DNA from: Methanobrevibacter sp. YE315
Lineage (GTDB): Archaea > Methanobacteriota > Methanobacteria > Methanobacteriales > Methanobacteriaceae
Length of the DNA: 64,000 bases
Direction: 5' to 3'
Assembly: GCF_001548675.1 (NCBI RefSeq)
Contig: NZ_CP010834.1
Span: forward strand, 1 to 64,000
Positions 1 to 40,869 of the stretch are shown here, piece by piece. The notes under the pieces are model-generated. The model was not told the DNA's origin, searched no databases, and worked only from the letters and a program-made list of their open reading frames with translations. The position numbers and the translations under genes were made by a program. Position 1 is the first letter of the stretch; each line of letters starts with the position of its first letter.

Positions 1-2701
1 AGCAACATTCAACTCAGTAGAATTAATCTCAGTACCATTCGCTAACAGATGAACAACCACATAAGCAGTTCTACAACCATCCTGATTATCAGAATCATTC
101 CAAACTTTCACAACAGTAACATTGGTCAATTCAGGAATATGAGTGTTAACAACAGTCCAATTACCATTACCATCACTACTAATAGTAGTATTATAATACG
201 CAACAGGATCCTCGATAATAGTATAAACAATCAAAGTACCATTGTTCTCATACTTATCTAAATCAAGGAAAGCGTAAGTCCAATTATTAGCAACATTCAA
301 CTCAGTAGAATTAATCTCAGTACCATTCGCTAACAGATGAACAACCACATAAGCAGTTCTACAACCATCCTGATTATCAGAATCATTCCAAACTTTCACA
401 ACAGTAACATTGGTCAATTCAGGAATATGAGTGTTAACAACAGTCCAATTACCATTACCATCACTACTAATAGTAGTATTATAATACGCAACAGGATCCT
501 CGATAATAGTATAAACAATCAAAGTACCATTGTTCTCATACTTATCTAAATCAAGGAAAGCGTAAGTCCAATTATTAGCAACATTCAACTCAGTAGAATT
601 AATCTCAGTACCATTTGCCAACAAACGAACAGTAACATAAGCAGTTCTACAACCATCCTGATTATCAGAATCATTCCAAACTTTCACAACAGTAACATTA
701 ACCAATTCAGGAACATGAGTGTTATTAATTATAAATTCATAGTTATTTCTGGTAATGTTAACAGTATAATTAGCAACCTCAACCTCGGTAACATTATAAG
801 CAATCAAAGTACCGTTATTCTCATACTTATCTAAATCAAGGAAAGCGTAAGTCCAATTATTAGCATCATTTAAAACAACAGTATCAATAACAGTTTGATT
901 TTTAATCAAATGAACAGTAATGTTATCAGGTCTGACACCATCTTGATTATCGTTATCAGTCCAAACTTTCTCAACAGTTATATTGATCAATTCAGGAATA
1001 TGAGTGTTAACAACAGTCCAATTACCATTACCATCACTACTAATAGTAGTATTATAATACGCAACAGGATCCTCGATAATAGTATAAACAATCAAAGTAC
1101 CATTGTTCTCATACTTATCTAAATCAAGGAAAGCGTAAGTCCAATTATTAGCAACATTCAACTCAGTAGAATTAATCTCAGTACCATTAGCCAACAAACG
1201 AACAGTAACATAAGCAGTTCTACAACCATCCTGATTATCAGAATCATTCCAAACTTTCACAACAGTAACATTGGTCAATTCAGGAATATGAGTGTTAACA
1301 ACAGTCCAATTACCCTTACCATCACTACTAATAGTAGTATTATAATACGCAACAGGATCCTCGATAATAGTATAAACAATCAAAGTACCATTGTTCTCAT
1401 ACTTATCTAAATCAAGGAAAGCGTAAGTCCAATTATTAGCAACATTCAACTCAGTAGAATTAATCTCAGTACCATTAGCCAACAAACGAACAGTAACATA
1501 AGCAGTTCTACAACCATCCTGATTATCAGAATCATTCCAAACTTTCACAACAGTAACATTGGTCAATTCAGGAATATGAGTGTTAACAACAGTCCAATTA
1601 CCCTTACCATCACTACTAATAGTAGTATTATAATACGCAACAGGATCCTCGATAATAGTATAAACAATCAAAGTACCGTTATTCTCATACTTATCTAAAT
1701 CAAGGAAAGCGTAAGTCCAATTATTAGCAACATTCAACTCAGTAGAATTAATCTCAGTACCATTTGCCAACAAACGAACAGTAACATAAGCAGTTCTACA
1801 ACCATCCTGATTATCAGAATCATTCCAAACTTTCACAACAGTAACATTGGTCAATTCAGGAATATGAGTGTTAACAACAGTCCAATTACCCTTACCATCA
1901 GTAGTAATAGTAGTATTATAATACGCAACAGGATCCTCGATAATAGTATAAACAATCAAAGTACCATTGTTCTTATACTTATCTAAATCAAGGAAAGCGT
2001 AAGTCCAATTATTAGCAACATTCAACTCAGTAGAATTAATCTCAGTACCATTTGCCAACAAACGAACAGTAACATAAGCAGTTCTACAACCATCCTGATT
2101 ATCAGAATCATTCCAAACTTTCACAACAGTAACGTTGATCAATTCAATGACGTGAGTGTTATTAATTATAAATTCATAGTTATTTCTGGTAATGTTAACA
2201 GTATAATTAGCAACATTATTCTCAGTAACATTATAGGCAATCAAAGTACCATCAGCATTAAACATATCTAAATTCTCGAACATGTGTGTCCAGTTATTAG
2301 ATTCATCTAATGTAACATTATCAACTTTCACACCATCATCATACAAAGTAACATTAATATTCTCAGGTCTTACTCCATCTTGGTTATCATTGTCAGTCCA
2401 AACTTTAGTAACAGTTATATTAACTAATTCAGTGTTAATAATAGTCCAGTTGTAAGCAGTGCTATTAGTAACAACAGTTCTATACTTTGTAACGTTGAAT
2501 TCACCAATAGTATACTTGATTGCACTACCATTTACATTAAACCTAATTAAATCATAGAAGGTATGCATCCAATTATTAGACTCATTCAATACAGCAGTGT
2601 CAAATGTTGCACCATCAGCATACAAGACAACAGTAATATTTGCAGGCCTATTAGGGTGAAGAATACCGTCAAGCCAAATTTTCTCAACAGTTAAATTAAC
2701 C
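1..2701 (-). repeat. More divergent Cna_B-like repeats, mostly 288-bp units
   Basis: Landmarks recur at 127, 415, 703, 988, 1276, 1564, 1852, 2140, 2425 and 2701: six steps of 288 bp, two of 285 and one of 276, with a partial unit at the window edge. Units between 1 and about 2140 are nearly identical over long blocks; those from 2140 to 2701 are more divergent. Each encodes about 96 residues with the KVWNDSDNQDG, NNWTYAFLDLDKY and NTHIPE signatures of Cna_B domains. Two further diverged units lie at about 6050-6610, so the protein has at least 23 complete Cna_B-like domains. Confidence 0.9.
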
Positions 2702-5700
2702 AATTCAGTGTTAGTAACAGTCACAAGATAAGCAATACTATCATCATACTCAACACTGAAACCAGGAACAGGAATCTCACCAATACTATAATTGATCACA
2801 CTACCATCAACATCATACCTAAGTAAATCAACGAAAGTGTAATTCCAATTATTAGACTCATTCAAAGTAATAGAACGAACCAAAACAGTACCATTCATTA
2901 ACCTAACAGTAACATTTACCGGCCTATTACCAGTAGCATTATTACCGTCAATCCATACTTTAACAACAGTGAAATTAACCAACTCAGTGTTAGTAACAGT
3001 CACAAGATAAGCAATACTATCATCATACTCAACACTGAAACCAGGAACAGGAATCTCACCAATACTATAATTGATCACACTACCATCAACATCATACCTA
3101 AGTAAATCAACGAAAGTGTAATTCCAATTATTAGACTCATTCAAAGTAATAGAACGAACCAAAACAGTACCATTCATTAACCTAACAGTAACATTTACCG
3201 GCCTATTACCAGTAGCATTATTACCATCAATCCATACTTTAACAACAGTGAAATTAACCAACTCAGTGTTAGTAACAGTCACAAGATAAGCAATACTATC
3301 ATCATACTCAACACTGAAACCAGGAACAGGAATCTCACCAATACTATAATTGATCACACTACCATCAACATCATACCTAAGTAAATCAACGAAAGTGTAA
3401 TTCCAATTATTAGACTCATTCAAAGTAATAGAACGAACCAAAACAGTACCATTCATTAACCTAACAGTAACATTTACCGGCCTATTACCAGTAGCATTAT
3501 TACCATCATTCCATACTTTAACAACAGTGAAATTAACCAACTCAGTGTTAGTAACAGTCACAAGATAAGCAATACTATCATCATACTCAACACTGAAACC
3601 AGGAACAGGAATCTCACCAATACTATAATTAATTACACTACCATCAACATCATACCTAAGTAAATCAACGAAAGTGTAATTCCAATTATTAGACTCATTC
3701 AAAGTAATAGAACGAACCAAAACAGTACCATTCATTAACCTAACAGTAACATTTACCGGCCTATTACCAGTAGCATTATTACCATCAATCCATACTTTAA
3801 CAACAGTGAAATTAACCAACTCAGTGTTAGTAACAGTCACAAGATAAGCAATACTATCATCATACTCAACACTGAAACCAGGAACAGGAATCTCACCAAT
3901 ACTATAATTGATCACACTACCATCAACATCATACCTAAGTAAATCAACGAAAGTGTAATTCCAATTATTAGACTCATTCAAAGTAATAGAACGAACCAAA
4001 ACAGTACCATTCATTAACCTAACAGTAACATTTACCGGCCTATTACCAGTAGCATTATTACCATCATTCCATACTTTAACAACAGTGAAATTAACCAACT
4101 CAGTGTTAGTAACAGTCACAAGATAAGCAATACTATCATCATACTCAACACTGAAACCAGGAACAGGAATCTCACCAATACTATAATTAATTACACTACC
4201 ATCAACATCATACCTAAGTAAATCAACGAAAGTGTAATTCCAATTATTAGACTCATTCAAAGTAATAGAACGAACCAAAACAGTACCATTCATTAACCTA
4301 ACAGTAACATTTACCGGCCTATTACCAGTAGCATTATTACCATCATTCCATACTTTAACAACAGTGAAATTAACCAACTCAGTGTTAGTAACAGTCACAA
4401 GATAAGCAATACTATCATCATACTCAACACTGAAACCAGGAACAGGAATCTCACCAATACTATAATTGATTACACTACCATCAACATCATACCTAAGTAA
4501 ATCAACGAAAGTGTAATTCCAATTATTAGACTCATTCAAAGTAATAGAACGAACCAAAACAGTACCATTCATTAACCTAACAGTAACATTTACCGGCCTA
4601 TTACCAGTAGCATTATTACCATCATTCCATACTTTAACAACAGTGAAATTAACCAACTCAGTGTTAGTAACAGTCACAAGATAAGCAATACTATCATCAT
4701 ACTCAACACTGAAACCAGGAACAGGAATCTCACCAATACTATAATTAATTACACTACCATCAACATCATACCTAAGTAAATCAACGAAAGTGTAATTCCA
4801 ATTATTAGACTCATTCAAAGTAATAGAACGAACCAAAACAGTACCATTCATTAACCTAACAGTAACATTTACCGGCCTATTACCAGTAGCATTATTACCA
4901 TCATTCCATACTTTAACAACAGTGAAATTAACCAACTCAGTGTTAGTAACAGTCACAAGATAAGCAATACTATCATCATACTCAACACTGAAACCAGGAA
5001 CAGGAATCTCACCAATACTATAATTGATTACACTACCATCAACATCATACCTAAGTAAATCAACGAAAGTGTAATTCCAATTATTAGACTCATTCAAAGT
5101 AATAGAACGAACCAAAACAGTACCATTCATTAACCTAACAGTAACATTTACCGGCCTATTACCAGTAGCATTATTACCATCATTCCATACTTTAACAACA
5201 GTGAAATTAACCAACTCAGTGTTAGTAACAGTCACAAGATAAGCAATACTATCATCATACTCAACACTGAAACCAGGAACAGGAATCTCACCAATACTAT
5301 AATTGATCACACTACCATCAACATCATACCTAAGTAAATCAACGAAAGTGTAATTCCAATTATTAGACTCATTCAAAGTAATAGAACGAACCAAAACAGT
5401 ACCATTCATTAACCTAACAGTAACATTTACCGGCCTATTACCAGTAGCATTATTACCATCATTCCATACTTTAACAACAGTGAAATTAACCAACTCAGTG
5501 TTAGTAACAGTCACAAGATAAGCAATACTATCATCATACTCAACACTGAAACCAGGAACAGGAATCTCACCAATACTATAATTGATCACACTACCATCAA
5601 CATCATACCTAAGTAAATCAACGAAAGTGTAATTCCAATTATTAGACTCATTCAAAGTAATAGAACGAACCAAAACAGTACCATTCATTAACCTAACAGT

Positions 5701-8700
5701 AACATTTACCGGCCTATTACCAGTAGCATTATTACCATCATTCCATACTTTAACAACAGTGAAATTAACCAACTCAGTGTTAGTAACAGTCACAAGATAA
5801 GCAATACTATCATCATACTCAACACTGAAACCAGGAACAGGAATCTCACCAATACTATAATTAATTACACTACCATCAACATCATACCTAAGTAAATCAA
5901 CGAAAGTGTAATTCCAATTATTAGACTCATTCAAAGTAATAGAACGAACCAAAACAGTACCATTCATTAACCTAACAGTAACATTTACCGGCCTATTACC
6001 AGTAGCATTATTACCATCATTCCATACTTTAACAACAGTGAAATTAACCAATTCAGTATTCACAATAGTCCAATTATAAGCAGTACTATTACTAATCGCA
6101 ACAGAGTAACCAGGAACAGTTAACTCTTCGAAAGAATACTTAATCGCGGTACCATTATCATGGAACACAGTTAAATTATAGAAAGTATGCATCCAATTAT
6201 TAGTGAAATTCAAAATAGCACTACCAACTGCTTGACCATCAGCTAACAAGGTAACATTAATGCTAGGCGGCCTTCTGCCAGTAGTATTATTTCCATCATT
6301 CCACTCTTTGATAACAGTAAGATTTGTAACTAATGTATTCTCAATGATTGTTAAACCAGGAGTTGAATTAGTAACGTTAACAATGTAATTGTTTAAAACA
6401 GTGGTCTCAATAACGGTGTAAATAATTCTTTGAGTACCGTTATAAACTTCTAAATCAGTGAATGTATGTGTCCAATTATTAGAAGCATCCAATCTAGTAC
6501 CATTAACTCTTACACCATCAGCAAGTAACTCAACATCAATAAACTCAGGTCTGGTATTATTAGTATTATTACCGTCATGCCAAATTTTAATAACTTCATA
6601 AGTTGTTGGAATAGCTTCGGTTACATTGCTTGCAGAGATATTTTTACCAATTGTTTCCCTAGTTGTTAGGTTAACAGTGTTGATTAAAGTACCAGTTGCT
6701 AAAGTTTTAAAGGTTATTGTGAAGTTTGCAGCTTCTTCAAAGCTTAAAGTGCCTAGATATCTTAAAACCATATTGGTAAAGTTAACAGTTTGACCATCAA
6801 CAGTCTGATTGAATGTTGTAACGCTGTCAATTACCCACATGTCGCTGTTTGTATGATTGATATATTCCAATTCAGAAGTTCTGAAAATCTCATTGATTGT
6901 GATATCATGTAAAATGGTATCGTTGGTATAATTACCGTCAGTATTGTTAAATGTATTTTTCACAACTACTACGAAATCAGAATATTCACCTAGGTACACG
7001 GTCTCATTCACGGTTAACTTATCAAGCAACTTATATGCATAAGTCTTATTGCTTGCAACTAAGATTCTTTCTTTAGTCTCTTTAGTTGTCAAGTTAACGG
7101 TGTTGATTAAAACACCTGTTGCCAAAGTCTTGAAGGTTATTGTAAAGTTAACTGATTCATTTACATGTATAATGCCGTCTTCATATTTTAAAACAATACA
7201 GGTATAATTGTCACCTTTGCTGTCAACAAACGTATCTGTACTCTCAATAATCCAGCTGCTATTGCTATGTCCTACATACTCCAATTCAGAAGTCTTGAAT
7301 ATTTCATAGATTGTAACATCGGTTAAGTTGGTAACGTTAGTGAAATCACCAGAAGTACTATTGAACGGATTAGTAACAACGACTATGAACTCGGCATTGT
7401 CGCCAACATAAACTGTCTCATTAACAGTCAACTTATCAAGCAATTCGTATACATCAGTAGTATTGTTTGCTGAATAAGGATCTCCAGTTTGATTAGAAGT
7501 TACATTAACAGTGTTGACTAAAGTACCGGTTGCTAAAGTCTTGAATTTTGCAGTAAAGTTAGCAGATTCTCCAGTTTCTAAGACACCATCATATATGAAT
7601 TCAATGCAAGTGTAATTAATGGTTTCTCCACCTACAGTTTCAGTAATATAATAGGTTCTGTTAATAATCCACTTATCCTTATTATCATAGTCAACAAATT
7701 CCAATTCAGCGGTTTTGAAGAAATCAGTTGCAGTAATATTGGTCATGTTGGTACTGTTACCATCGTCATCAACAAGAGTATTCCTTACAACAACAGTGAA
7801 CTCTACTTCATCACCAAGAAGTGATGATCCATTTAGAGACAATTTTTTGACTGTTGGAGGTTCAATTACTCTGAATTTAGTAACGTTTTGAATAGCTGTG
7901 TAATAGCTAGTTTCATTATAATATGCTTCTACATAATACACTCCTTTAGATAAACCAGTTAGTTTCAATGTTGTTTTTCCAAAGATGTCTGTCTTAACGA
8001 TTTCATCAGCTGAGAAATTTCCAACAACAGTACCATTTTCATCATAAACAACTATTCTAACAATTTGTTGGTTGTTTTCAAAAGGATATTGATAAATTTC
8101 ATCATAATCTGGTTCCAAGATTGGTGTAATATAGTCATCACGGGATACAGTTTTATCTATTTCTTGACCGTCTTCAGTGAAGAACGGATAAGTAATATTT
8201 TTCACCCAAACAGTAGAGCTGTTGTTATGAATACCGTTAGCTATGTTGTCCCCACCTTTGTGATAGACTATGATTGTTATGTTTTCATTTTCGTATATAG
8301 TAGGTATAATTCTGCATGTACAATTAGCTTCACATCCGCAGCCTTCATCTTCTGTTCCTCTTTTTCTGGTAGGACAATTGCATTGACCAGGGATGCAATT
8401 ACATGCACCATACTTTGTTGCAGAACTGTTATGGTCGTTAGCTATAGCTAACAATTGATAGGACCAAGCTTGGTTGTCATAGAATGTTGAATCATGTACA
8501 TGTAATGTAGAGGAAGTGACTGTTCCATCATATGCAACAAACTGATCTAAATAAATTGCAGATCCGTTTATTGCGGTATTCCAACTGAAATCACCTTGTA
8601 TGGTAGCATCTTGCACACCTGCTATGTAGAAAGCACCACCTAAACCTGAACTATTAGCGATGTCTCCTAATGCATGGTTATCTCTGAAGATTGAGTTAGT

Positions 8701-16356: not shown

Positions 16357-16878
16357 CTAGTAATCATCGAACAATGCCCATATGTCAGGGTATTTTTTGG
16401 CAACTGCCTCTTCGATTAAAACAGATGCTTCCTTTGAAATACTAAATTCCGGTTCGGTTTTTCTTAAGTATCTGAAAACGGCCGAAGATCTTGAAGACCA
16501 TAAGGTTATTCTTGGATTTTTATCTACAATCTCTTTAACCTCAGCTATATGTTCTTCTTGGATTTTGATTTCTTGTGGTGTTTGTACACTTTCTTCGCTG
16601 CCCTTATCGCTAGATAAGTCTTCGGGTTCGCTAGCATCCACCTGTACCTCTTCCTGCGGGTTAGGCTCTTCAGGGATACTGCTTCCATTGACATTCGAAA
16701 TATCTTCTTGATCATTTTCTTCCGCTACCTGTTCAAATATATTCTTTTCTTCTTCACCAGATTTCTCCTCTTCATTCAATAAATCTTCAAGAGATTGAGT
16801 AGAATTACTGTCGAAATCTTCATTATAATAATCAGGAATTAATGAATCCAATCCTTTTCCAAGACCTTTTCTAGCCAT
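16357..16878 (-). CDS. ParA partner with ParB-like N-terminal motif and acidic linker
   Basis: The 173-residue product starts with a basic MARKGLGKGLDSLIP segment (residues 5-15 GLGKGLDSLIP). This is very like the extreme N-terminus of bacterial ParB/Spo0J, where that segment contacts ParA and stimulates its ATPase. Residues 16-105 are a Glu/Asp/Ser-rich disordered linker. Residues about 110-173 appear folded, with a short strand PRITLW followed by two helices (SAVFRYLRKTEPEF and SISKEASVLIEEAVAKKY), an order reminiscent of ribbon-helix-helix domains. The ParB N-terminal nuclease-like fold and central HTH are absent. Its ATG shares one base with the parA stop (TAATG) and has GGAGG within the end of parA, so the two are translationally coupled. 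Its role as segregation adaptor is inferred. Confidence 0.7.
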   Translation of the reverse strand: MARKGLGKGLDSLIPDYYNEDFDSNSTQSLEDLLNEEEKSGEEEKNIFEQVAEENDQEDISNVNGSSIPEEPNPQEEVQVDASEPEDLSSDKGSEESVQTPQEIKIQEEHIAEVKEIVDKNPRITLWSSRSSAVFRYLRKTEPEFSISKEASVLIEEAVAKKYPDIWALFDDY

Positions 16879-17747
16879 TATTTACCTCCCATACTCCTTT
16901 CCAGATTTCTTTTAACCATCTTGAATTGGCTTTTTCCTTTTACATCTATGCTTTTTCTTGCTTCATTCAATTGAACGTTTTCGTCCCTTTGAATAATTTC
17001 CTTAGCTAATCTTAAATAAGCTTTGGTACCTGTACTTTCAGGATCATAAATCAAGCAAGGTTTTCCGAAACTAGGAGCTTCAGCTAATCTGATGTTTCTT
17101 GGAATGATTGTTTTAAATAATAAGTTTGATTCGCCAAAGTAACTTTTAAGTTCTTTGTGTACGTCTTTACTAAGCCTGGTTCTCTTATCAAATAGAGTAA
17201 GGAGAATTCCTTTGATTGGAGTGGGACTTCTAAGCCTTCTTTCAACTAATTTTATTGTATTAATCAAATCAGCTACACCTTCCAAAGCGTAATACTCAGC
17301 TTGGATAGGTATTAAAACACTATCTGAAGCTACTAATGCATTGACAGTAAGTACGCCTAATGAAGGAGGCAAATCAATGAATATGTAATCAAATAATGGT
17401 ACAACATCTTTAAGAGTTTCCTGTAACACAATATGATAATTTTCACGTCTAGAAAGCTCCATTCCAGCACCACTGAGGGATATATTACTTGGGATAATAA
17501 ATAAATTTTTAATAAACGTAGGAATTGTTGCTTTTTTTACATTAATATCCCCAATGAGAGCATCATATATTGTATTTTCTATTTTGGTTTTATCAATCCC
17601 AAAGCTGGTTGTTGCGTTAGCTTGAGGATCCATATCTACAACCAAAACAGATTTGCCCATTACGGCTAGGGATGTTGCAGTATTTACAACGGTTGTTGTT
17701 TTTCCACAGCCCCCTTTTTGATTCATCACTGCGATTACTTCACTCAT
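16878..17747 (-). CDS. parA: ParA/Soj family chromosome-partitioning ATPase
   Basis: The 289-residue ATPase has the deviant Walker A box QKGGCGKTT at residues 10-18 (signature Lys11 and P-loop Lys16), a Walker A' region (VVDMDPQANAT) and a Walker B segment (YIFIDLPPSLG), all typical of ParA/Soj rather than MinD: no amphipathic C-terminal helix is seen. A basic tail of about 30 residues (ending MVKRNLERSMGGK) could bind non-specific DNA. In ParA systems ATP-bound dimers coat the nucleoid and are released by a partner protein. The next gene encodes a candidate partner, and the region upstream is the 7-bp-phased array. A good SD (AAGGAGAATT) lies just before the ATG. Confidence 0.9.
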   Translation of the reverse strand: MSEVIAVMNQKGGCGKTTTVVNTATSLAVMGKSVLVVDMDPQANATTSFGIDKTKIENTIYDALIGDINVKKATIPTFIKNLFIIPSNISLSGAGMELSRRENYHIVLQETLKDVVPLFDYIFIDLPPSLGVLTVNALVASDSVLIPIQAEYYALEGVADLINTIKLVERRLRSPTPIKGILLTLFDKRTRLSKDVHKELKSYFGESNLLFKTIIPRNIRLAEAPSFGKPCLIYDPESTGTKAYLRLAKEIIQRDENVQLNEARKSIDVKGKSQFKMVKRNLERSMGGK

Positions 17748-17770
17748 TTAAAGAATTCTCCTTTATCTGA

Positions 17771-18134
17771 TAAGATTTAAGTTATCAGTTATGAATTATA
17801 ACTTAAAATGCTTAGGGTTTAAAGAATAACTTTTAAGTTATTCAGTATAAGTTAAAAGAATTAAGTTAAATCTTTTAATTTAAAACTTAAAGGAAATAAC
17901 TTATCAGTTTTAACTTCTAAGGGATAGGAATTAAGTTTTAAGTTAAAACGTCTAAGTTATAAAAAATAAGTTTTAAGAAATAACTTATCATAACTAACTT
18001 TTAACAAATAAGTTATATTTTATAACTTCTCTCTTATAAAGTATTTGTTTTCACAAATAAGTTATTAGTTATTTGTTAATAGTTATAAGTTATAACAAAT
18101 AATAAAACACTAATAAGTTATAAGTTATAAGTAA
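17771..18134. repeat. 7-bp-phased heptad array upstream of parA (candidate centromere/operator)
   Basis: Cutting the sequence every 7 bases from 17771 gives 52 consecutive heptamers with no insertion or deletion. Eleven are exactly TAAGTTA and three exactly TAACTTA (its reverse complement); most others are 1-3 changes away (TAAGTTT, TAACTTT, TCAGTTA, TAACAAA). TAAGTT occurs 13 times and AACTTA four times, always in the same register, so spacings are multiples of 7 within one orientation. The consensus TAASTTA is a palindrome with central G/C. The array fills the gap between trpB2 and parA, ending just before the parA SD. Phased heptads are known as binding sites of ribbon-helix-helix omega protein next to its ParA (delta) in pSM19035. 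A centromere and/or operator role here is inference. Confidence 0.85.
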
Positions 18135-18150
18135 AAAAATTCAAAAAAAA
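18133..18150 (-). terminator. Oligo-T terminator after trpB2
   Basis: On the minus strand two T runs (8 at 18150-18143 and 7 at 18139-18133) follow the trpB2 stop codon within 30 bases. Archaeal RNA polymerase terminates at such oligo-T tracts, which would limit read-through from trpB2 into the heptad array and parA. Confidence 0.5.
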
Positions 18151-18162
18151 TAAAGGGAAGGA

Positions 18163-19464
18163 TTATTTAGCGTTTTGCATTGTTCCTTCAAAATAGCTAG
18201 CATATCCTTTTAAATCCAACATTCCATGACCTGAGAAGTTCATAACAATTGTTTTCTCTTCTCCGGTTTCCTTACATTTCAAAGCTTCATCGATGGTAGC
18301 CTTAATTGCATGTGTGGTTTCTGGAGCCGGAAGGACTCCTTCGTTACGGGCAAAAGCAATTCCGGATTCGAAACAGTCTCTTTGATGAACTGCTTTAGGG
18401 GTTATATATCCTTCTTTAGTTAAAAGGGAAACGATAGGTGACATTCCATGGTATCTTAATCCACCGGCATGAACGGAAGGGGCAACGAAGTCATGTCCTA
18501 AGGTAAACATCTTGAGCATTGGTGTAAATCCGTTGGAATCTCCAAAGTCATAGTCATAAGATCCTTGAGTAAGGGTAGGGCATGCAGTAGGTTCAACAGC
18601 AATGAATTCAGTGTCGGAGTTTCCATCAATCTTGTCCTTAATGAATGGGAACAGGGATCCTGCAAAGTTACTTCCCCCTCCTGCACAGGCAATCATTACG
18701 TCTGGAGTTTCTTCAGCAATCTCCAGTTGGGTTTTTAGCTCTTGACCGATGATTGTTTGATGGAGCATTACATGGTTTAGAACGCTTCCTAATGAATATT
18801 TGACATTGTCGTTTTCCAAAGCCTCTTCCATCGCTTCGGAAATAGCTACACCTAAAGAACCTGGATGGTCCGGGTCATTTGCAATAACTTCACGGCCGAC
18901 TTTGGTATTTTCACTAGGTGATGCGTAAACGTTTCCGTCATAAATGTTCATTATGTTTTTCCTGTCAGGCTTTTGGTTGAATGATACCTTAACCATATAA
19001 ACTGTACATTCCAAATCAAGGAGGTTACATGCAAGGGATAAGGCGGTACCCCATTGACCAGCACCTGTTTCAGTAGTTAATCTTTCTACACCTTCTTTTT
19101 TAGCAAAATATGCTTGAGGAATAGCGGAATTTAACTTGTGTGAACCTGTTGGAGAGGTATCTTCCCTCTTGAAGTAAATTTTTGCGGGAGTATTCAAGTA
19201 CTCTTCAAGCCTGTTGGCTCTCACTAATGGAGTGGGTCTTCCCATTTCCATATACAGGTTTCTGACTTCATCAGGAATCTTGATATAGCGGTCGGTGGCA
19301 AATTCCTGTTCTAAAGCTGCTTTTGTAAAAGCAATCTGTAATGATGAAATCTGATCTTTTCCTTCACTGTTAATAGGAGCCGGAAGCTCACAAGGTAAAT
19401 CGGCAAGCATATTGTACCATTGTTTTGGCACGTCATCTGATGATAATTCTATTTTGTAAGTCAT
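18163..19464 (-). CDS. trpB2: TrpB2-type tryptophan synthase beta chain
   Basis: The 433-residue PLP enzyme converts indole and serine to tryptophan. The PLP lysine is Lys110 in GSHKLNSA, preceded by the substrate-carboxylate region; ETGAGQWGTAL and the phosphate-binding CAGGGSNF loop follow. The longer N-terminus (about 60 residues before IPDEV) and overall length identify the TrpB2 subfamily, which does not need TrpA in the way TrpB1 does. No trpA or other trp gene is adjacent, as expected for TrpB2 outside the trp operon. The ATG lies about 26 bases from a TATA box embedded in TGTACA-type TRP boxes, so tryptophan-dependent repression by a TrpY-like protein is likely. Confidence 0.92.
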   Translation of the reverse strand: MTYKIELSSDDVPKQWYNMLADLPCELPAPINSEGKDQISSLQIAFTKAALEQEFATDRYIKIPDEVRNLYMEMGRPTPLVRANRLEEYLNTPAKIYFKREDTSPTGSHKLNSAIPQAYFAKKEGVERLTTETGAGQWGTALSLACNLLDLECTVYMVKVSFNQKPDRKNIMNIYDGNVYASPSENTKVGREVIANDPDHPGSLGVAISEAMEEALENDNVKYSLGSVLNHVMLHQTIIGQELKTQLEIAEETPDVMIACAGGGSNFAGSLFPFIKDKIDGNSDTEFIAVEPTACPTLTQGSYDYDFGDSNGFTPMLKMFTLGHDFVAPSVHAGGLRYHGMSPIVSLLTKEGYITPKAVHQRDCFESGIAFARNEGVLPAPETTHAIKATIDEALKCKETGEEKTIVMNFSGHGMLDLKGYASYFEGTMQNAK

Positions 19465-39728: not shown

Positions 39729-40869
39729 CAAGTAATTCTTCATCACACTGAAGCTTAATAATATTGGTTCTTCCTTTTCCACGTCCACGTGAAATTGTAT
39801 TGGTGGAAATGATACCCAACATTTCCAATTCATTGATAAAATCAAATATTCTTCTGTAAGTTACAGCATCCTTTTTAGAAACTTCTTTATACGCATCATA
39901 TAATTTACCGGAAGTTATCTCCTCATCCTGTTTTGTTAATGTTAAAATGGCTTCTAAAACCCTTTGTTGCTGAAGCGGCAATGTAGATATGATTTCAATG
40001 ACCTTATTATGCTCGATTTTATCTTTTGCTCTCCTAACATGATCTCCAGTTACGACATTGGAATCTTCATCGAAAGCCAATTCGCCTGCGTTTTTAAGTA
40101 AATCAAGAGCATAACGAGCATCGCCCTCTTCTTTTGCAGCCATGGCTGAACACAAAGGAATCACATCACTTTCCAAAACATCATCATTAAAGGACAACTG
40201 AGCCCTTTCCAATAAAATATCTGATAGCTGGTCTGCTCCATAAGGTGGAAATACAATTTCTTTATCGTTTAAACTGCTTGTAACTCTTGACTTGATCAAA
40301 TTCTTAAAGTCCAAATAATTACTGATACATAAAACTGATACGTTTTCTGTTCTGGTAAGTGTATATAATATTCCATCACCGTCTTTATCAAGCAAAATAT
40401 CAATTTCGTCCAAAATAACAATCAAATGCAGTTTTCTGCCGAATGCATTGGTTTTGAAAATATCCCTGAAGGTGTTTACAACTTCACCTTTGGTCCAACC
40501 GCGGTTTGGAACGTCACGGCCTAACTTATTACACAATTCAGCGAGTACCTGATATTCTGTTGTGTAATCTGTGCATCTGATGTATTCAACTTTTACAAAA
40601 ACATTTTTTCTGCGTGCTATGTCAATAAGCTGTTCGCGAGCAAATTTTGATGCTGCAGTTTTTCCAGTTCCTGTCTTACCGTAAAGAGTCACGTTTGATG
40701 GAGTCACATTACTTAAGACATCCACCCAATTTTTAGCTATCAACTTTATCTGTTCTTCCCTGTGGACTAATTTATCAGGTAAATATCTATGATCTAATGG
40801 AGCTTTATCTTTGAAAATAATGGGGTTAGTAGTATCAGTTTTTTCTAATTCATCGAAAATGTTTTCCAT
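39706..40869 (-). CDS. cdc6: Orc1/Cdc6 replication initiator
   Basis: The 387-residue AAA+ protein has Walker A GKTGTGKT at residues 64-71, Walker [10 protein letters not shown] near 148, sensor 1 in VLCISN, and an arginine-containing sensor 2 ([10 protein letters not shown]). The C-terminal winged helix (about 300-385) includes a basic wing ([10 protein letters not shown]). Orc1/Cdc6 binds origin boxes and helps load MCM. The upstream intergenic region carries a cluster of its expected boxes. The start is the ATG at 40869 with an AAGGTG SD six bases away; a GTG at 40878 is less likely. It converges with pyrB with an eight-base overlap. Confidence 0.95.

Follow-up and report, generated by a model that had tools for sequence, protein, structure and literature searches.

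SegB is an established ribbon-helix-helix (RHH) centromere-binding protein of archaea, and the heptad of omega, the RHH-type ParB of plasmid pSM19035, is asymmetric. The core site of Sulfolobus SegB is AGA-s-TCT, a 7-bp palindrome with a central S (PMC12284271), and omega needs at least four contiguous heptads (PMC9499535). A euryarchaeal SegB/SegAB branch was previously known (PMC5120986, PMC12284271); the 2025 SegB paper, the latest study of this protein, calls SegB evolutionarily unrelated to ParB, gives no site close to the segAB genes of Thermococcus sibiricus and guessed that the Thermococcus sites must differ considerably (PMC12284271). In the bacterial ParABS system of M. xanthus, Y81, E82, D110, E117, L150, G151 and L152 of ParA contact or neighbour the N-terminal tip of ParB, and loss of the central K/R residue of this tip abolishes stimulation (PMC12462528). 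Here we analysed a segAB locus in a 64,000-nt window of Methanobrevibacter sp. YE315 (NZ_CP010834.1, positions 1 to 64,000 of the forward strand, to which the positions in Table 1 refer), where a SegB-type adaptor appears to carry a ParB-type tip and lies beside a tandem heptad array.

Results

The gene pair and the identity of the adaptor

A preliminary description of this DNA had proposed a ParA gene with a partner gene, and both open reading frames are present. Directly downstream of segA, segB begins in a TAATG overlap with the segA stop, with an SD-like GGAGGT within the 3′ end of segA, and the segA-segB order is the same in relatives. The heptad array lies in the gap between segA and an upstream trpB-like gene. 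GC skew is strongly negative, −0.28 to −0.41, over window positions 1-6000.

Table 1. Features of the segAB locus and its surroundings in the window
Feature	Position	Strand	Description and basis
segA	16878-17747	−	289 aa; bacterial-type (Soj-like) ParA ATPase with deviant Walker A KGGCGKTT; Pfam AAA_31 (3e-62) and PDB matches
segB	16357-16878	−	173 aa; SegB orthologue, putative centromere-binding adaptor; C-domain profile against 7dv2/7duv
N-terminal tip MARKGLGKGLDSLIPD	16831-16878	−	ParB-type ParA-activating motif, by sequence; conserved in 73/73 and 7/7
Acidic, fast-evolving linker of the segB product	16567-16830	−	opens with clade motif YNEDFDSNSTQSLEDLL; 33% D+E
Conserved motif YNEDFDSNSxQSLEDML	16777-16830	−	SegB residues 17-34, directly after the tip; Methanobrevibacter clade
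SegB C-terminal domain	16357-16566	−	RHH-class DNA-binding/dimerisation domain, assigned by homology
Heptad array	17764-18137	.	~50 heptads TAA-S-TTA in tandem, each with S at its centre; candidate centromere and operator for SegB
trpB-like gene	18163-19464		upstream of segA
orc1/cdc6	39751-40818	−	replication initiator gene

The partner matched no Pfam or NCBIfam family, the ParB domain included, and a ParB CTPase (ParB/Srx)/HTH core was accordingly rejected, in agreement with the preliminary description. A profile of the 68 C-terminal residues from Methanobacteriota, nearly the whole of the 69-residue C-terminal domain, matched PDB chains of Sulfolobus solfataricus SegB (7dv2/7duv) with an E of 1e-10, which improved to 5e-12 once Thermococcales were added, the following PDB matches being insignificant (hmmsearch). 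Judged by these profiles, the partner is an orthologue of archaeal SegB and the pair a euryarchaeal SegAB. The match rejects a new protein family. Of the hybrid adaptor proposed earlier, the combination of ParB-type activation with DNA binding of the SegB/omega type is supported; the adaptor itself is a SegB orthologue rather than distinct from SegB. Of the families named for a C-terminal HMM search, SegB was thus recovered; a histone fold was rejected, as only eukaryotic H2B appeared, insignificantly, at E 0.15-0.8 versus ≤1e-10 for SegB. No omega chain was among the PDB profile matches up to E 10.

Structural models were weakly informative as a check for an unrelated fold. The AF2 monomer of the C-domain (pLDDT 78) contained helices only and had SegB 7duv as its top Foldseek match at a weak E of 0.81, and the low-confidence full-length model yielded nothing significant in the PDB. 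The C-domain models are only moderately confident, and the RHH class, considered possible in the preliminary description, is assigned by homology, through the sequence profile to Sulfolobus SegB.

Among Methanobacteriota, segB was found in 136 of 152 genomes, nearly always as a single copy, and 9 of 71 sampled Thermococcales genomes carry it; it was absent from the 23 genomes searched in the phylum of G038 and from the plasmids searched. Thermoproteota also hold tip-less homologues of the C-domain (PRLTFYSPLSAAV...PRYSISDE; L109-L116, L120 and L121), a stand-alone branch of the domain in which a parA gene is missing within 1.5 kb, with L121 as a possible exception.

Tip and C-domain are conserved across the orthologues, and the linker between them is variable. 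The linker is acidic, as described earlier (33% D+E versus 3% K+R over residues 17-104), and the first ~100 residues of SegB are mostly without regular structure in the AF2 model (confidence 43-70). The loose pattern [STV]LE[DE] occurs in 61 of the 73 complete orthologues and is missing in Thermococci and in most lineages without a large array. Both the SLED-type motif and a long acidic linker mostly accompany the large-array clade, an association that probably reflects one evolutionary event and proves little.

The N-terminal tip and its ParA partner

The partner starts with MARKGLGKGLDSLIP, and the tip consensus across SegB of Methanobacteriota and Thermococcales, LGxG(L/I)xxL, is that of bacterial ParB, as in the T. 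thermophilus Spo0J tip used for comparison (MSRKPSGLGRGLEALLP, including LGRGLEALLP). In a contig scan of Methanobacteriota and Thermococcales, LGxG[LI] stood near the N-terminus in all 73 complete SegB orthologues, those cut or masked at the N-terminus being excluded, versus one among the 628 other ORFs at these loci, and seven of seven additional Thermococcales SegB carry an LGRGLEA tip. The ParB-like motif noted earlier is therefore not there by chance, and it is kept across orthologues, where its loss would have spoken against the preliminary description. By contrast, Sulfolobales SegB start with MSELDFLLNRKK and lack an LGKGL tip, and the parA-less C-domain homologues of other Thermoproteota also lack it. 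The central K/R is replaced in some lineages, giving LGMGL in Methanothermobacter-like genomes and LGLGL in L034 and L051.

The ParA partner is of the bacterial kind, with PDB matches to ParA 8ray (245 bits), H. pylori Soj (215) and T. thermophilus Soj (195) and only 66 bits to Sulfolobus SegA. Counting without indels from the DxDPQxN motif (D58, D60, N64), we found Y, D, S, E, L, G and V in SegA at the seven tip-associated positions of M. xanthus ParA (in the order given above), so that by alignment SegA retains most ParB-tip-contact positions. Sulfolobales SegA lacks the segment around Y81, which belongs to the surface on which ParA accepts the tip. Tip and Soj-like pocket are both present here, and Sulfolobales lack the tip and part of the pocket, suggesting that they come and go together. 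From these sequences we infer that the euryarchaeal SegB tip is a ParB-type ParA-activating motif.

The motif is short, and certain lineages have M or L instead of its central positive residue, as could be expected if its likeness to ParB were accidental or if it served another partner while SegA was activated in another way. We consider this highly unlikely, since conservation in 73/73 and 7/7 stands against a background of 1/628, and since the tip accompanies a Soj-like ParA and is missing in Sulfolobales and in the parA-less homologues. A search of the PDB and plasmids with the short tip peptide gave no match, the query being too short to inform. In the searched literature we found no publication tying LGKGL to ParB and archaea, and an earlier mention in the 2012 or 2021 SegB papers is possible; the abstract of Yen et al. 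2021, on SegA and SegB structures, is said to credit the SegB N-terminus with ATPase stimulation.

The heptad array and its counterparts in relatives

The preliminary description had coupled the gene pair to a heptad array, and the repeat is pronounced. Within ~370 bp upstream of segA, 13 AAGTT and 8 AACTT all fall in a single 7-bp phase, in heptads of both orientations (S in the unit being G or C), with a periodicity contrast of 0.214 versus a maximum of 0.039 over 2000 simulated sequences. Searched with patterns and in selected stretches, the genome (2.27 Mb, one contig) contains no second such array. Weaker heptad-like sites lie at G000:C1:271722-271961, 357283 and 1019899; a second orc1/cdc6 gene (275178) is ~3 kb away from the first of them.

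Where a Methanobrevibacter-clade locus extends far enough, an array almost always lies directly upstream of segA, much changed in sequence yet keeping the 7-bp register, with TAASTTA as the pooled unit. A matrix trained on these clade arrays was then run out-of-sample on loci without an array. In 11 of 12 array-less Methanobacteriales loci, the top-scoring run of three heptads lay 39-114 bp upstream of segA; the Methanothermus-like G037 was the sole exception, where heptads at segA were not found. In eight of eight Thermococcales, the L106 genome among them, one of the two best sites was 56-70 bp upstream of segA and the other 0-14 bp past segB. The same matrix gave no strong match upstream of segA in three Sulfolobales loci.

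The orc1/cdc6 gene in the window lies ~22 kb from segAB, making the segregation locus origin-proximal, and the corresponding distance is 9-42 kb in 8 of 11 other closed genomes, the remaining three being G037 (~200 kb), G026 (~300 kb) and G059. This nearness, the very AT-rich composition of the array and its variation in sequence among species would suit a repeat with no connection to SegB, either an AT-rich satellite or an element of the replication origin to which Orc1/Cdc6 or some other protein binds. Such an explanation of the array seems barely credible to us, because motif and register are retained precisely at segAB in two phyla, G026 keeps its segAB heptads despite the distant cdc6, and a neutral repeat is not expected to hold a single 7-bp phase in both orientations.

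In Methanothermobacter-like genomes, heptad sites form a parS-like cluster around segAB, close to the origin. Sites flanking segAB numbered 5 of 6 in 75 kb in G034 (P 3e-4), 5 of 5 in 75 kb in G035 (P<5e-5) and 4 of 5 in 68.5 kb in G031 (P 1e-3), P values that are not independent since these genomes are related; several of the clustered sites outside the operon are near or within gene ends. Clustering was not significant in G026. Six perfect TAAGTTATAACTTATAAGTTA sites lie within 63 kb in G037 (L122-L127), five of which may be dispersed repeat copies because they share longer flanks.

The heptads might instead be a mere autoregulation operator of segAB, with segregation proceeding through other sites or SegB serving chiefly in chromatin or in the control of transcription. 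Heptad sites do adjoin the segA start, just upstream of it, and RHH proteins are often repressors; however, ~50 heptads in 370 bp far exceed what an operator needs, the extra-operon sites of Methanothermobacter-like genomes gather within ~75 kb of segAB, and Thermococcales carry an additional site 3′ of segB, all of which make a purely regulatory role improbable.

Discussion

We favour, with a probability of roughly 0.8, a chromosomal SegAB system that operates in the manner of ParABS, with SegB coating the heptads and a ParB-type tip triggering SegA; DNA binding by SegB, stimulation of the SegA ATPase, segregation and autoregulation are functions that we infer for it. By analogy with omega, SegB dimers would cooperatively occupy the tandem TAA-S-TTA units upstream of segA at about one dimer per 7 bp, and the coated heptads would form a nucleoprotein centromere and probably also repress segAB. 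The disordered tip, (K)GLGKGLDSLIP, held on an acidic tether, would reach SegA-ATP dimers bound to nucleoid DNA, dock at their interface and set off ATP hydrolysis and SegA release, a cycle that would move the origin region. Against this reading we counted M or L at the central tip position, a residue needed in M. xanthus ParB, the segA of G037 without heptads, the far cdc6 of G037 and G026, the lack of significant clustering in G026, the weak fold match (E 0.81) and the few weaker heptad sites elsewhere in the genome.

It also seems likely that euryarchaeal SegAB connects bacterial ParABS with the SegAB of crenarchaea, joining a Soj-type ParA to a ParB-type tip on an RHH adaptor. Its centromere of tandem TAA-S-TTA heptads would then be shared by Thermococcales and lineages as far as Methanobrevibacter; in some lineages it would be scattered around the origin, and in the Methanobrevibacter clade it would be concentrated in a single array of ~50 heptads. 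The Sulfolobus AGA-s-TCT site beside TAA-S-TTA fits a common binding mode with an altered half-site. SegAB is a known family; its ParB-type tip and the proposed centromere of heptads are new as far as the searched literature shows. They provide a concrete candidate motif and locations for euryarchaeal SegB sites, including a putative single-array centromere in gut methanogens, and suggest that ParB-type ParA activation is not bound to the ParB fold.

Among described systems, AspA-ParBA of the Sulfolobus plasmid pNOB8 shares archaeal ParA-based partition but employs three proteins, including AspA and a ParB adaptor (PMC5120986), with no similarity to the partner found. The delta/omega system of pSM19035 likewise combines a ParA with an adaptor of the RHH class, and its 7-bp repeats are contiguous and occur in both orientations, but it is plasmid-borne rather than chromosomal, and sequence homology to omega was not found. 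Sulfolobales SegAB (S. solfataricus; 7dut, 7duv, 7dv2) shares the overlapping segA-segB pair, the homologous C-domain, the unstructured N-terminus and DNA sites at segAB with an S-centred 7-bp palindromic core, but differs in its SegB tip (MSELDFLLNRKK rather than LGKGL), in a diverged SegA without the Y81-region segment and in dispersed AGAsTCT palindromes rather than the tandem TAAsTTA heptads seen here (PMC12284271). Whereas bacterial chromosomal ParABS (Soj/Spo0J) uses parS palindromes and an adaptor with the ParB CTPase/HTH core, the adaptor here lacks that core, has a SegB-type DNA-binding domain and is paired with tandem heptads; the two systems share a Soj-like ParA, an LG(K/R)GLxxL tip and, in relatives of this locus, several clustered sites near the origin.
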